Virus record (IMG/VR): IMGVR_UViG_3300033146_000869
Coordinates: 1 to 31,907 of that record
DNA length: 31,907 nt
Origin: a virus
Strand: one strand, 5' to 3'
Of this stretch, positions 9,277 through 24,016 are shown in pieces. Under the pieces are notes generated by a model. That model did no database searches, was not told the DNA's origin, and saw only the letters and a program-made list of their open reading frames with translations. A program made the position numbers and the translations under genes. Positions within the stretch are counted from its first letter, which is position 1; the number at the start of each line of letters is the position of its first letter.

Positions 9277-9303
9277 GAAATCACCGCTAAGGAGGTGGCG
9301 CGA

Positions 9304-9705
9304 ATGTTGATTACAGCCAAGATTCTAGTCGAAGAGTATGACGCATGCAGCGAGGGGGCATCGGCGTTCGCATCCGTATTCCCTGACGGACTCGACGTGT
9401 CAGGGTGGACAGCGGCGCAGCAGCTTGGGGTTCTGATGCATGACGAACTCCGTCGGAATCTTGCGTGGATTGTTGGCGCTGGGATCGTCCCGATGTGGTC
9501 GATGCGAAAGTGTGACCTGCGCGGTGCCGACCTGAGCGGTGCCAACCTGCGCTATGCCGACCTGAGCGGTGCCAACCTGTACGGTGCCGACCTGAGCGGT
9601 GCCAACCTGTACGGTGCCGACCTGCGCGGTGCCAACCTGCGCGGTGCCGACCTGAGCGGTGCCAACCTGCGCTATGCCGACCTGCGCGGTGCTAATCGTG
9701 GATAA
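9304..9705 (+). CDS. Pentapeptide-repeat protein, 133 residues
   Basis: The first 69 residues form a phage-type N-terminal domain ([32 protein letters not shown]). From residue 70 on there are about 13 pentapeptides of the A-[DN]-L-x-x type ([15 protein letters not shown]), which fold into a right-handed square beta helix of about three coils. Longer proteins of this fold mimic DNA and block gyrase; this repeat block is short and such a role is unproven. It is the first gene of the rightward operon behind a strong ribosome site (AAGGAGG). The GTG at 9295 overlaps that site and is rejected as start. Confidence 0.85.
9511..9702 (+). repeat. 15-bp tandem repeats coding the pentapeptides
   Basis: Units such as GCCGACCTGAGCGGT and GCCAACCTGTACGGT alternate, giving a 30-bp higher-order period. 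The high nucleotide identity between units implies recent expansion or conversion, so copy number may vary between relatives and may be collapsed in assemblies. Confidence 0.85.
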
Positions 9706-10278: not shown

Positions 10279-10487
10279 TGAACGAGAACATGGAGATGCG
10301 TGAGACGAAGGACAGCATGAACGTCATCCTTGAGCCGTACGGGCTTTGCTGTGGGCTCGACTCTGACGGCTGGTTCATCGAGTCGGCTGGTGGACTGTGG
10401 TTCCGCGACGTGTGCAGCGGGATGACCGAGGTGCAGCTTCGTGCCTGGGTCGCTTCGCTGCCTGCGCGTATCGGTGGTGCGTCGTGA
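10278..10487 (+). CDS. Unknown small protein, 69 residues
   Basis: The ATG at 10278 overlaps the upstream stop (TGATG) and the TGA at the end overlaps the next GTG. The sequence is acidic with a compact Gly/Trp-rich core (YGLCCGLDSDGWFIE, GGLWFRDVC), probably a small soluble fold. No motif is recognised. Tight coupling on both sides is the main support for it being a gene. Confidence 0.65.
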   Translation: MNENMEMRETKDSMNVILEPYGLCCGLDSDGWFIESAGGLWFRDVCSGMTEVQLRAWVASLPARIGGAS

Positions 10488-10999
10488 GCACAAACGCCAA
10501 GGCCAACAAAGCTCGTTTTAAGGCGGGGCTCAAACTGTGTGTCCGCTGCCATAAAGATAAGTCGCATGACCTGTTCCCTGTGCAGTCATCGCGAGTGTGC
10601 TCAGAGTGTGCGAACGACACGAGCGGACGGTGGTGCTCAGGCTGTAAGCGCATTCGTGACGACGGTGACTTCGCCACGGCGACGCGCAAGACCTGCTTGC
10701 ATTGCGCCGAGATTCATAACGCCTACCGAGCACGTCGCGAGGCGGGCAAGCTCCGGGGCTACCGCTCGGCTGGTGCTCGCTCGGTCTACGGCGAGCAGAG
10801 TTCCGAGCAGGTCATCGCGCGGGTGCTTGAGGACAAGCGCACCGGAAAGCTCGACGGCGGTCGCTGGCTCGCCAGTAAAGCCAAGCCTGGCACCATCGAG
10901 ACAGGGTTGCCGGTCAGCGTCGACACGTTGCAAATGTGGCACTGGTCGCGCGGGCGCCAGGTCTCCGACGTGGTTGCCGATGCGTGGGTTGCGCGATGA
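10484..10999 (+). CDS. Multi-zinc-knuckle protein, 171 residues
   Basis: The GTG at 10484 overlaps the previous stop. Four CxxC pairs occur in the first 90 residues: CVRC, CSEC, CSGC and CLHC, suggesting two zinc sites. These are spaced like the N-terminal knuckles often found in front of phage HNH nucleases, but no HNH motif follows. The rest is basic and helical (NAYRARREAGKLRGYR) with a C-terminal part around TLQMWHWSRGRQVSDVV. It is likely a nucleic-acid-binding protein; the specific role is unknown. Confidence 0.65.
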   Translation: MSTNAKANKARFKAGLKLCVRCHKDKSHDLFPVQSSRVCSECANDTSGRWCSGCKRIRDDGDFATATRKTCLHCAEIHNAYRARREAGKLRGYRSAGARSVYGEQSSEQVIARVLEDKRTGKLDGGRWLASKAKPGTIETGLPVSVDTLQMWHWSRGRQVSDVVADAWVAR

Positions 11000-14797: not shown

Positions 14798-15057
14798 TGG
14801 GGATTGGAATCATTCGAGGCGCAGTCCGGGGCGCTGTGACCATCGCTGCGGTGGTGGCTGTCGGCGTGCTGTCGATGCTCGCAGGCTGTGACGAAGAGAC
14901 TGTCTACGTCACCGAAGAGGGGCGAACGATGCAGGTGTGTGCGCCTGCTGATGAGGTCGGTGTGCCTGATTTTGAGCAGTGCGGGCTGTGTTGGGACCAG
15001 TACAAGGCGTACGAGATTATCCTGGCTCCGTGCCCGCGCGATGGCGGTGTGCGGTGA
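14794..15057 (+). CDS. Small lipoprotein, 87 residues
   Basis: ATG 14794 (or 14797) overlaps the previous stop. A hydrophobic N-terminal segment (VTIAAVVAVGVLSMLAGC) ends in a lipobox, so signal peptidase II cleavage before Cys is expected, with the protein lipid-anchored outside the cytoplasm. The mature part is acidic with five more cysteines (CGLCWDQYK). Phage lipoproteins can act in superinfection exclusion or lysis; which applies here is unknown. Confidence 0.72.
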   Translation: MMGIGIIRGAVRGAVTIAAVVAVGVLSMLAGCDEETVYVTEEGRTMQVCAPADEVGVPDFEQCGLCWDQYKAYEIILAPCPRDGGVR

Positions 15058-15485
15058 CTGGTCGACCGTCGAAGCTGACGCCTGATTTACAGACCGAGGT
15101 GTGTCGCATCCTGGCGCTCGGGTGTACCATCACGGCGGCTTGTGGCGTTGTTGGTATCGATGAAACGAGCTATCAGAAGTGGCGCGTTCGCGGGCGTGAG
15201 GCGCTCGAAGCTGGGCATGATGAGAGTCACGAGACAGAGGGGAAGTACGTCGGCTTTCTCGGTAAAACAACGCGGGCGCTGCAGCGATTCGAGATTGGTG
15301 CCGTCGAGAATATCCGTCGCGCAGGCAAAGCTGGCGACTGGAAAGCGGAGGCATGGATGCTTGCGCGACGCAACCCGGCGTTCCGCGACACGTCAAAGGT
15401 CGAACTTGAGGGCGAGGTGAAGGCGACCGGAGAGACGGTCGTGGCAGGTCTGCTGAAGCAACTCATCGACGGCGCGGATGGTTAG
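15054..15485 (+). CDS. Terminase small subunit, 143 residues
   Basis: The GTG at 15054 overlaps the lipoprotein stop. The N-terminus TGRPSKLTPDLQTEVCRIL and CTITAACGVVGIDETSYQKW form the helix-turn-helix seen in many small terminases, with a central coiled helix (LQRFEIGAVENIRRAGKAGD) and a WMLARRNPAFRD motif before an acidic tail. Small terminases recognise phage DNA and activate the large subunit. The large subunit gene lies just downstream, separated by one small gene. Confidence 0.82.
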   Translation: MTGRPSKLTPDLQTEVCRILALGCTITAACGVVGIDETSYQKWRVRGREALEAGHDESHETEGKYVGFLGKTTRALQRFEIGAVENIRRAGKAGDWKAEAWMLARRNPAFRDTSKVELEGEVKATGETVVAGLLKQLIDGADG

Positions 15486-15487
15486 TC

Positions 15488-15637
15488 GTGAAGGTTCCAA
15501 AGCCTGCAAGGCGAGGCTACGCAAAGATGGCCATCAAGTTCAGCAAGTGGAATGACGGGCCTGCGTGGCTGTATCGCCGGCGCCTGATGGATGCACAGCG
15601 AGCGCACCTGAGGGACGCAAAGCGCGGCGATGGCTGA
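15488..15637 (+). CDS. Small basic protein between terminase genes, 49 residues
   Basis: The GTG at 15488, three bases after the small-terminase stop, opens 49 codons ending at TGA 15635-15637. The peptide is strongly basic (KVPKPARRGYAKMA, LYRRRLMDAQRAHLRD) with aromatic residues around WNDGPAWL. The first terminase N-terminus (ATG 15630) starts inside its 3' end, which indicates that segment is the original coupled gene start. The function is unknown. Confidence 0.6.
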   Translation: MKVPKPARRGYAKMAIKFSKWNDGPAWLYRRRLMDAQRAHLRDAKRGDG

Positions 15638-15764
15638 GTTCATCACGCCGACGCTGAACATGTATCAGCGCGACGTTGTACGACACGCGGCGATAGGCAC
15701 GCGCATCGTGGCAACCCGTGGAGCCTGGGGCTGTGGCGCCGCGCGATTGACCGTGCGTGATTAA
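15630..15764 (+). pseudogene. Truncated N-terminus of the large terminase (displaced copy A)
   Basis: ATG 15630 encodes 36 residues ending NMYQRDVVRHAAIGTRIVAT, then RGAWGCG, the first half of a terminase Walker A loop. After GGC (15735-15737) homology stops; eight unrelated codons (AARLTVRD) lead to TAA 15762-15764. The segment aligns over 28 residues with copy B at 16325 with 25 identities. The start overlaps the upstream stop as normal genes here do, so I infer it is the resident 5' end, separated from its body by the inserted cassette. Unless spliced to the downstream body, it makes only a 44-residue peptide. Confidence 0.75.
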
Positions 15765-15775
15765 GGTGGTGTAAT
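15747..15775 (+). promoter_or_regulatory. Cassette promoter
   Basis: TTGACC (15747-15752), exactly 17 bases, then TGTAAT (15770-15775): five of six matches to consensus in both boxes, the best sigma70-like promoter I found. It lies at the left edge of the inserted segment and would express the HNH gene independently of the late operon. Confidence 0.6.
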
Positions 15776-15833
15776 GATGGTCGCCGAGGTGTGGAGCCTC
15801 GACGACCTGTTAACGCCAACGGAGGGCGCCAAC

Positions 15834-16328
15834 GTGACCAACCTATCTCAAGATGCGCAGCGGCTCAAGACATGCACAAAGTGCGGTAAAGAGAAGCCAG
15901 AGTCGATGTTCTATCGTAACGGTAATTCGAGGCGTCCAGACTGCAAGGTGTGCAAAGATGCGACGCGTAGAGCGCACTTTGACCGCGACCCTGAGCAGTT
16001 CATCAGGATGAGGGCACGAAGAAGAAAGTATTTACGAGCCTACGACCGTGAAAGGTACGCAGAGCACAGGGAAGCAAAGATTGCATGTGCAATAGCGTGG
16101 AACGCAGCGAACAAGAAGAAGGTCAAGGCCAAGAGACTGATTGCGGCCGCTGTGAGACATGGAGACATGCCGTCAGCGTCAGATGTGGCGTGTTCTGTTT
16201 GTGGATTGACAGGGCGACACTATCATCATGACGACTACGATATGCCAATGAGCGTCAGGTGCATGTGCTCATCGTGCCACCGAATTTGGCACCGAGACAA
16301 CATTGCTCTAAATGGAGACGACGAATGA
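15834..16328 (+). CDS. HNH homing-type endonuclease, 164 residues
   Basis: I take GTG 15834 as the start, with GGAGGG seven bases upstream; ATG 15774 overlaps the -10 box and is unlikely. The N-terminal knuckle CTKCGKEKPESMF...CKVC is common in phage HNH proteins. The C-terminal domain reads CSVCGLTGRHYHHDDYD, then CMCSSCHRIWH: the HNH beta-beta-alpha metal site with two structural CxxC pairs. A basic helical linker (RARRRKYLRAYDRERY) probably contacts DNA. Base composition is richer in A/T than the flanking genes, a sign of transfer. The TGA overlaps the ATG of terminase copy B. Confidence 0.85.
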   Translation: MTNLSQDAQRLKTCTKCGKEKPESMFYRNGNSRRPDCKVCKDATRRAHFDRDPEQFIRMRARRRKYLRAYDRERYAEHREAKIACAIAWNAANKKKVKAKRLIAAAVRHGDMPSASDVACSVCGLTGRHYHHDDYDMPMSVRCMCSSCHRIWHRDNIALNGDDE

Positions 16329-17758
16329 CGACACTGTATCAGGTCCCTGTGCTCAACTCGTATCAGCGCTCAGTCGTTCGCCATGCCGCGCGCGGGACTC
16401 GCATTGTCGCCACGCGCGGAGCTTGGGGTTGTGGATAGCAAGGTAAGACGATGAGCCTCGTCATGGTCGCGCTGACCATGAGCGAGATTCATCCGGGCGA
16501 GCATGGCCTACTCGTCGTCGACACTCAGCCGAGATACCTGCGCGTTCATCGACCAGAGCTTGAGAAGTGGCTACTTCCGCTTGGATGGGTCGAGCACCGA
16601 GCCGAGATGAGGTGGGTGGCTCCCAACGGCTCGTCGTTGACGTGCATACCGTACTTTCGCACGTCAACGCGCTCGAGCACCACTAACCCGCTTGAGGGAT
16701 TCAACGGCTCATACGGTCTCGTTGATGAGGCGCAGGCGCTACCGCTTGAGGTTGTTCACAAGCTGCTCGGACGACTCAGAGCAGGCAAGCGAGCACAGGT
16801 ATTCCTGTGGGGGCTCCCGGTGTGGGGCGCATGGTGGGAGCGGTACGCTGACGAGAATGGCGGCGTCGTTCTGCTGCCAGTGACGCGCGACAACGCCGCA
16901 AACCTAAGCGAAGACTACATGGTCAACCTCGCCACGCTGCCTGAGCGAGAGCGCTTGGCTATGGTCGAGAATAAGCCTCAGCCGCCAGAGGGGAGTGTCT
17001 TCGACCGCTTCGATCCAGTGCCGCACCCTGTCGGGAATCTCACGCCGCTTGGATGGAAGTACAACTCCGAGCATATCACGCGCCTCGCTGCTGACTTTGG
17101 ATTCAGGCACCCGGCAGCGACCATCATCGTCTACGACCCGGACCTCGACGCTGACGTGATAGTCGAGAGCATCTTCCCGGAGGACTCGACGGTGCGCGAG
17201 TTCTGCGCTGCAATCCTGACGGTGGCTTGGCCGCGTGACCTGCCGGGGCGACCGGCGTCTGCCATCTACCACCTCGACAGCGCGGTTGGAGACAAAGCGG
17301 GGCGTGCTCGCTCTGACCAGACGGGCGTCAGCACCATCGCCATGATGCAGCGGCCTCCGAGCGATGGTGGCGTGGGCCTGCACTTCCGCACCCCGACACC
17401 AGGCGTTCGCACGGACATTGCCAACGGAGTGCGACTGCTTCAGATGCGCTTCGAGCGTCGGCGCCTGCTCATCTCGGCAGACCTGTGGGAGCGAGAGATG
17501 GGCGATGGCGCGGTGAGGATGTGCCGTTCTATCGTCGGCTACCGCTACCGCGACGGCGCCAAGGATGGGGACTTGCCTTGGAAGGACGGCACCCACGACC
17601 ACGGCGTCGACCTCCTGCGCTACGACCAGGTCGTGCACCGGTGGTTGCAATTCCGCAACCCAGACGCGCCGACCGTCGACAAGCGCATCAAGCGCGCTGC
17701 CACGAGCACGAGGCGCGGTGCTGTGCCTCGAAAGCGACGACGCAGCGGCGGCAGGTAG
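16325..17758 (+). CDS. Large terminase subunit with an in-frame TAG inside the Walker A codons
   Basis: ATG 16325, coupled to the HNH stop, encodes copy B of the N-terminus up to RGAWGCG (GGA 16433-16435). Then TAG (16436-16438), CAA and GGT precede AAG ACG ATG, after which the frame is open to TAG 17756-17758. The body has Walker B GLVDEAQALP and a C-terminal RNase H-like nuclease start (AADFGFRHPA). It would pump DNA into the capsid. Without the nine bases the P-loop is GAWGCGKT; with TAG read as an amino acid it is GCGxQGKT, which still fits GxxxxGKT. Restart at ATG 16451 (after AAGGT) would give a 435-residue protein lacking the P-loop. How an active enzyme is made is unresolved. Confidence 0.82.
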
Positions 17759-23104: not shown

Positions 23105-24016
23105 ATGCTCTGCACCTGCTGCGGATTCGACAATAGCACCACACTCAAACTCTCTGAGTCTGAGGACCGTGCTATTGCGTCGTTGACACGGCAGGCGCGC
23201 GAGCAAGGTGGCGACCTTGGCAAGCTCCTGCGCTCCATCCGAGATCGGATGAAGGTGCAGGGGCGTGCTACTCGCGGCTTGGACCGCGCGCTTGAGCAAC
23301 TGTTCAAGCGCGTCATCGAGGACGTGATGAGCGCGGCGAATGGTGGCAACTCCACCCGCGCTGCGCTGAAGAATCTGACCCGTGAGCAGTTGGGCTCCAT
23401 GCTCGACGCTGCGGGTCTTGACGATATTATCAATGAATGGACCGAAGCTCAGTCGAGGCTCATCACTGCGGCTCAGGACTCGGCAGACCTCGCCGGCGTG
23501 CCTGCTGGTCAGGTGGCTCCACGGTCATCGGCAATTGGCGCATGGCTCGACGCTGAAGCCGACGAGCTGTGGGATGACAAGATTCGTCGCCCTGCCGTTC
23601 GCACCATACGCGAGGGTCTGCTGACCATGGGCGACACGCCTGAGGACTTGGTGCCACGGCTTCAGCGCAAGCTCGACCTCACGCGCTCACAGGCTGCGAC
23701 TGAAGCGAGGACACGCATTGCCGACTTCGATCAGTTCGTCGTTGACCAAAATTCAGACGCTCAGCTTTGGTGGTATGCGGGTCCAGATGACAACATCACG
23801 CGCCCGTTCTGCGACGAGATTGTCGGCAAGGTCTTCGACTCTGAGCAGGTCGATGCACTCGACAACTCACAGACCATCATCAGTCCGCGCATCTCGCGAG
23901 GCGGCTACAATTGCCGGCATCGGTGGGTGCCTATGAGTGAGACAACCTTCGAAGCTTCGGGCTTGCCCCGTGGCACTGACGCTGACGTGCGGTCGGCGAA
24001 TGCGGTGGCGAAGTGA
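23105..24016 (+). CDS. Mu F-like minor head protein, 303 residues
   Basis: A long helical N-terminal region precedes the domain typical of SPP1 gp7/Mu gpF head morphogenesis proteins: QLWWYAGPDDNITRPFCDEI, GKVF, then ISRGGYNCRHRWVPMSE, with paired Cys and His. An extra CTCCGFDN knuckle opens the protein. These proteins sit at the portal vertex and may enter the cell with DNA. The ribosome site is weak. Confidence 0.82.
   Translation: MLCTCCGFDNSTTLKLSESEDRAIASLTRQAREQGGDLGKLLRSIRDRMKVQGRATRGLDRALEQLFKRVIEDVMSAANGGNSTRAALKNLTREQLGSMLDAAGLDDIINEWTEAQSRLITAAQDSADLAGVPAGQVAPRSSAIGAWLDAEADELWDDKIRRPAVRTIREGLLTMGDTPEDLVPRLQRKLDLTRSQAATEARTRIADFDQFVVDQNSDAQLWWYAGPDDNITRPFCDEIVGKVFDSEQVDALDNSQTIISPRISRGGYNCRHRWVPMSETTFEASGLPRGTDADVRSANAVAK

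Follow-up and report, generated by a model that had tools for sequence, protein, structure and literature searches.

How does a phage package its DNA when the one gene for its packaging enzyme carries a stop codon within the ATP-binding loop? The question is raised by the IMG/VR record IMGVR_UViG_3300033146_000869, an uncultivated phage contig of 31,907 bases analysed here at its full length (the window), in which the nine bases TAG CAA GGT (16436-16444) lie between the Gly and the Lys codons of the Walker A motif of the large terminase gene (TerL). Both terminase genes, the partial copy of TerL, the nuclease gene between them and all elements within these genes are on the + strand. The codons run TGG (16424-16426), GGT (16427-16429), TGT (16430-16432), GGA (16433-16435), TAG (16436-16438), CAA (16439-16441), GGT (16442-16444), AAG (16445-16447), ACG (16448-16450) and ATG (16451-16453). 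Direct reading thus confirms the nine extra bases with an in-frame TAG which the sequence-only reading had described; the first codon quoted there, TGG, lies 3 nt upstream of the start it gave (16427), and the remainder is as it stated. The frame from ATG 16325 to the TAG at 17756-17758 contains a single internal in-frame stop, the TAG at 16436. Its first part, hereafter copy B (16325-16435), comprises TerL codons 1-37 and ends at the Walker A Gly codon GGA, and the body of the gene follows from AAG ACG onward (16445-17758), with 435 codons, intact Walker B (GLVDEAQ) and nuclease motifs and no visible decay.

The gene is a large terminase, with an ATPase and an RNase H-like nuclease part and with the genes for the small terminase subunit (TerS) and the portal adjoining it, whose Walker A motif is interrupted in the DNA. 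Searches with the body as a single sequence are weak, with no match in Pfam or PHROG and a Salinibacter phage TerL at E 2e-3, and the readthrough form matches the PHROG TerL family phrog_979 at E 8e-4. A profile built from the readthrough form and distant relatives finds large terminases of solved structure (5oe8/5oea, E ~1e-29; 4ife, 1e-10). A query alignment whose positions outside the motifs had been varied artificially, used to steer one search only, yielded TerLs of 22-31% identity. The best folds matched by an AlphaFold model are all large terminases, namely D6E, Sf6 gp2, P74-26 TerL, HK97 TerL and T4 gp17 (structure entries 5oea, 4iei, 2o0h and 6z6d), in a model with a mean pLDDT of 50 that reaches mostly 60-85 at residues 11-110 and is poor outside the ATPase domain; the closest of the predicted viral structures is A0A1B1IQ80 (34% identity). 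The single internal stop, the terminase fold and the retained motifs bear out the earlier description of a frame open on both sides of the TAG and of an intact body.

The contig shows the gene order of a tailed phage (TerS, TerL, portal, head proteins, tail genes) and also carries genes for a DnaB-type helicase, SSB and RecT. Its other core genes are intact, and no second large terminase is seen in the contig. The TerS gene (15057-15485; phrog_4102, E 8.6e-25) is nearest to TerS of archaeal viruses (Methanobacterium PhiF3; Haloferax and Halorubrum tailed viruses), in contrast to the remaining genes, which look like those of bacterial phages. An ORF at 9295-9705 is rich in pentapeptide repeats of the ADLSGANL type, and a small ORF at 10397-10999 with several CxxC pairs possibly encodes another zinc-binding nuclease-like protein. 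Close relatives of the TerL, HNH and portal genes were found neither in IMG/VR and GTDB contigs, where near-identical records may be hidden, nor in a search of plasmids.

The gene preceding copy B (15774-16328; phrog_2340, E 1.7e-21) encodes an HNH endonuclease, and its stop overlaps the start codon ATG 16325 of copy B as ATGA. An alternative start, GTG 15834, stands behind a good Shine-Dalgarno-like GGAGGG. The gene has the marks of a free-standing homing endonuclease: an HNH domain, a position outside any intron, and relatives (153 phage records) with varied neighbours, scattered over unrelated phages and sites. Duplicated gene starts were not found around these relatives in other phages. 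In the window, such a duplicate lies on the 5' side of the HNH gene. This copy A (15630-15764) is a TerL 5' remnant of 36 codons from ATG 15630 to the Walker A Gly codon (GGC 15735-15737), after which come eight unrelated codons, a TAA and then the HNH gene. Copies A and B are alike over 84 nt (73% identity, spacing 698 nt), with similarity ending at 15736 and 16434, and their last 26 codons include 16 synonymous differences, three non-synonymous ones and seven identical codons. This mostly synonymous divergence indicates two terminase lineages that separated under purifying selection rather than a recent duplication. It looks saturated at synonymous positions, which would fit two old lineages and avoidance of a nuclease site alike. 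The homology of copy A is lost at the same nucleotide at which copy B bears the nine bases, and a single P-loop site has therefore received both the HNH-side junction and the insert. A nuclease cut site would be expected to show such a shared breakpoint. As copy A breaks at the very nucleotide of the insert, the link to the HNH gene is stronger than the sequence-only reading had it.

Several simple ways around the TAG were considered and dropped. The first start codon after the TAG is ATG 16451, and a protein re-initiated there would consequently be without the Walker A GKT. A single frameshift meets immediate stops in both other frames, and recombination between copies A and B would not remove the TAG. 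As TAG terminates 12 of the 38 genes of this phage, the genetic code is not reassigned; the pattern by which a TAG-reassigned code is recognised (genes seldom ending in TAG, and TAG common within frames) is not the one found here. No suppressor tRNA was seen in the contig, whose sole tRNA is a tRNA-Tyr with anticodon GTA, in agreement with the earlier remark that this tRNA would not suppress UAG. It is 83 nt long (787-869) and lies near the left end of the contig. With a frame open on both sides of the TAG in the sole TerL, the view that the enzyme appears to need a decoding trick is supported. A candidate recoding stimulator is a stable hairpin at 16450-16493 (-25.2 kcal/mol), which begins 12 nt after the TAG and has a z-score of -3.7 to -4.0 against synonymous-codon shuffles; only two of 933 coding windows are equally low. 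Compared with such shuffles, unusually stable RNA folds are also seen in the coding stretches 16622-16675 and 23213-23366. A stem-loop 5' of the site or at the take-off codon, of the type known from T4, was not seen in the window, where the fold of the site itself is weak (-3.9 kcal/mol).

The comparison with related terminases which had been proposed as a check gave a divided answer: none of the relatives found has these nine bases, but inserts of another kind occur at the same codon boundary. The terminase of Streptomyces phage Hau3 (phiHau3) is a published bypass candidate, in which a UUA codon follows the residues KGWG (PMC5009743). Its TerL gene and those of GreenWeasel and BroPlease read TGG GGC-TTAC(T/C)CCGGT-AAG GAC; the corresponding sequence of Yosif, Alsaber, phiCAM and Nanodon is TGG GGC-AAG GAC with no insert. 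Exactly as in the window, the insert stands between the Walker A Gly and Lys codons, and the layout is a Gly codon, a slow codon (TTA), a spacer of 2-4 nt, a second Gly codon and the Lys codon. Hau3, GreenWeasel and BroPlease are plaque-forming isolates, and their interrupted terminases thus belong to viable phages. In GreenWeasel and BroPlease the interrupted gene is annotated as two or three separate genes; the Hau3 gene lies at 2329-3995 of L198.

A scan of IMG/VR for inserts of 8 to 16 nt with TTA and GGN, in which lengths of 9, 12 and 15 nt were allowed, gave 23 matches. Ten of these lie in bona fide TerLs with frames open on both sides, one being Hau3 and the others nine additional genes (L231, L232, L233, L235, L241, L244, L247, L249 and L251). 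Since TTA and GGN were required by the scan, these two features are not independent evidence, which lies instead in the TerL context and in the out-of-frame lengths: the inserts in the ten TerLs measure 8 or 10 nt only, never 9, 12 or 15. All Hau3-type inserts being out of frame, plain translation cannot make these terminases, nor can readthrough explain them. On the tree, the distribution of the insert requires four or more gains or losses. The flanking codons are GGC/GGC or GGC/GGT in most members and unmatched in L235 (GGT/GGA). A second insert occurs just before Walker B, between Ser and Thr codons, in Hau3 and GreenWeasel (TCT, TTAACGGTCC, ACG; 10 nt) and in L249 (TCT, TTAGTCC, ACG; 7 nt); BroPlease and the relatives are without it. 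Here too the take-off codon, TCT, is followed by TTA and has a synonymous landing codon, TCC; this pattern was not built into the IMG/VR search, and synonymous codons around a TTA are what a hop would predict. The 10-nt P-loop inserts and their flank can fold as CUUAC-UCCG/CCCG-GUAAG just after the take-off codon (Hau3, L198 ~2613-2628; L231; L241; GreenWeasel, L223; L224), which recalls the small take-off stem-loop of T4; 8-nt inserts do not fold in this way. Other searches were negative: 395 actinobacterial genomes gave no TTA-type insert in a terminase (one chance match), GTDB contigs gave 26 matches with none in a TerL, and stop-interrupted P-loops with the spacing of the window gave 23 matches elsewhere in IMG/VR, none in a terminase context.

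The reading favoured here, with a probability of roughly 0.45, is that a short ribosome hop from GGA to GGU over nine untranslated bases would restore GAWGCGKT, and that the insert would protect the gene against the HNH nuclease. Peptidyl-tRNA-Gly would pause on GGA (16433-16435), the rarest Gly codon in the genes of the window (46 of 550), while the stop codon UAG occupies the A site. It would then detach and re-pair nine bases on at GGU (16442-16444), the last codon of the insert, and decoding would resume at AAG to give a normal P-loop, GAWGCG-KT. The HNH homing endonuclease may have entered the terminase gene at the nucleotide of the insert, which was probably fixed because its nine bases destroy the predicted HNH cleavage site at the P-loop. 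A hop is favoured because the interrupted gene is the sole TerL of the contig, has an intact body with a terminase fold and stands among intact core genes. The recurrence of inserts with the same layout at the identical boundary in other phages argues in the same direction, and of the possibilities raised in the sequence-only reading a very short hop is the one best matched by these independent cases. The Hau3 TerL is moreover a listed bypass candidate, and hops in T4 gene 60 and over stops in synthetic constructs have been described (PMC5009743). The end of copy A homology at the nucleotide of the insert and the strong hairpin just 3' of the site also speak for the hop. Against it stands the codon pair, since under standard wobble rules no single tRNA-Gly would normally read both GGA and GGU, while most Hau3-type pairs (GGC/GGC, GGC/GGT, TCT/TCC) can share one tRNA. 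The slow codon of the Hau3 class, TTA, is special to Streptomyces, and the host of the phage in the window may not be a Streptomyces. Further points against a hop are the missing T4-like stem-loop, the Hau3-type loci that do without a 3' hairpin or a duplication, and the uniqueness of the nine bases among the relatives found.

The strongest competitor, although an unlikely one, is that the gene is simply broken. The HNH nuclease would have cut the P-loop and faulty repair would have left a nine-base scar with a stop codon, the contig then being either a defective or very recent variant that a helper complements, or one of the versions present in a mixed population. The common end point of copy A and the insert is what a cut site would give, copies A and B differ almost only synonymously, which suggests that both were functional until recently, and the insert is private to this contig among the relatives found. 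A chance scar, however, would hardly be expected to be exactly in frame and to end in a Gly codon beside the Lys codon, nor to sit at the boundary where other, viable phages have inserts. The absence of decay in the body and the ATGA coupling of copy B to the HNH gene, as in a gene in use, also weigh against breakage.

Readthrough is rather improbable. UAG would be decoded at a low level, aided by the hairpin, to give GAWGCGxQGKT, and this might suffice for a packaging motor that needs few TerL molecules. Nothing but the TAG interrupts the frame, GCGxQGKT agrees with the Walker A pattern GxxxxGKT, the hairpin begins 12 nt downstream, and the AlphaFold model of the readthrough form keeps the strand, loop and helix at the P-loop. 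On the other hand, three residues would lengthen a loop whose length is among the most constrained known, an extension found neither in copy A up to its end nor in the distant relatives aligned. The lack of a suppressor tRNA beside the tRNA-Tyr (GTA) and the use of TAG to end almost a third of the genes are likewise unfavourable. The leakiness of UAG-CAA, to which the sequence-only reading had appealed, is known from a plant-virus and eukaryotic context.

An artefact of assembly or sequencing, either a join of two phage variants or a false insertion, is very improbable. The contig is an uncultivated virus record and copies A and B clearly go back to two terminase lineages, but a nine-base in-frame insertion would be an unusual sequencing error, the other long genes are intact and the ATGA junction between the HNH gene and copy B is biologically sensible. 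An intron containing the HNH gene and copy B, whose removal would join copy A as 5' exon to the body, is hardly credible: joining GGC TGT to GGT AAG would indeed give GAWGCGKT, but Rfam detects no group I or II intron at E<=5, only 36-96 nt separate copy A from the HNH gene and none follow it, and copy B is protein-coding sequence that diverged under purifying selection, not an intron core.

Bypassing itself is already known, as is a published terminase P-loop candidate, Hau3. Like the Hau3 insert, that of the window stands at the Gly-Lys boundary and ends in GGT before AAG, and the parts follow in the same order with TAG in the place of TTA. The Hau3 insert is however 10 nt long and out of frame whereas that of the window has 9 nt and is in frame, so that the boundary and the terminal Gly codon are shared with the Hau3 type and the length of 8 or 10 nt with TTA is not. 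The flanking codons GGC/GGT of Hau3 are readable by one tRNA and GGA/GGT of the window are not under standard wobble rules, which may not be those of the host. The window further has an HNH gene, a duplicated N-terminus and a 3' hairpin; as neither the hairpin nor the duplication is present at the Hau3-type loci, it is not a clean member of that class. What is new is the recurrence of such inserts in many terminases at a single codon boundary: interruptions of 8-10 nt are found there in at least 12 TerL genes, three from cultivable Streptomyces phages, and three of these genes have the second insert near Walker B. Hopping over the P-loop inserts is directly testable in the plaque-forming isolates.

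To our knowledge, T4 gene 60 is the one well-proven natural case of ribosome bypassing in phages. The parallel drawn to it in the sequence-only reading holds for GGA followed by UAG and for an interrupted essential gene preceded by that of a homing-type endonuclease, but fails for the landing codon, which is a matched GGA in T4 and GGU here, and for the take-off stem-loop. The T4 gap is moreover 50 nt and out of frame as against 9 nt, a nascent-peptide signal known from T4 is not seen in the window, and bypass in T4 was established by experiment where the present case is read from DNA. In T4 too the UAG follows a take-off GGA, the homing endonuclease lies 5' and the insert is proposed to protect the nuclease target of MobA (PMC5009743), as it plausibly does here. 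We tentatively suggest, with less confidence than is placed in the hop, that the locus may be a natural in-frame stop hop that moves as one unit with the HNH gene in the terminase P-loop; it would then be a minimal, convergently evolved counterpart of T4 gene 60/MobA and the stop-codon form of the recurrent P-loop insert class. If so, a terminase in which an in-frame stop hop occurs naturally and is linked to a homing endonuclease would be new, and would provide a second and far smaller natural case of bypassing beside T4 gene 60, both of them with a homing endonuclease as neighbour. Hopping in constructs and in T4 is described with like codons on either side of a slow codon or a stop, and no natural in-frame stop hop was known as of a 2016 review (PMC5009743). 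The in-frame stop hops engineered in E. coli (Weiss et al. 1987, cited in PMC5009743) resemble the window in a short hop over a stop between like codons that restores the frame, and differ in being constructs; the in-frame stop hop predicted from them would then have its natural counterpart.
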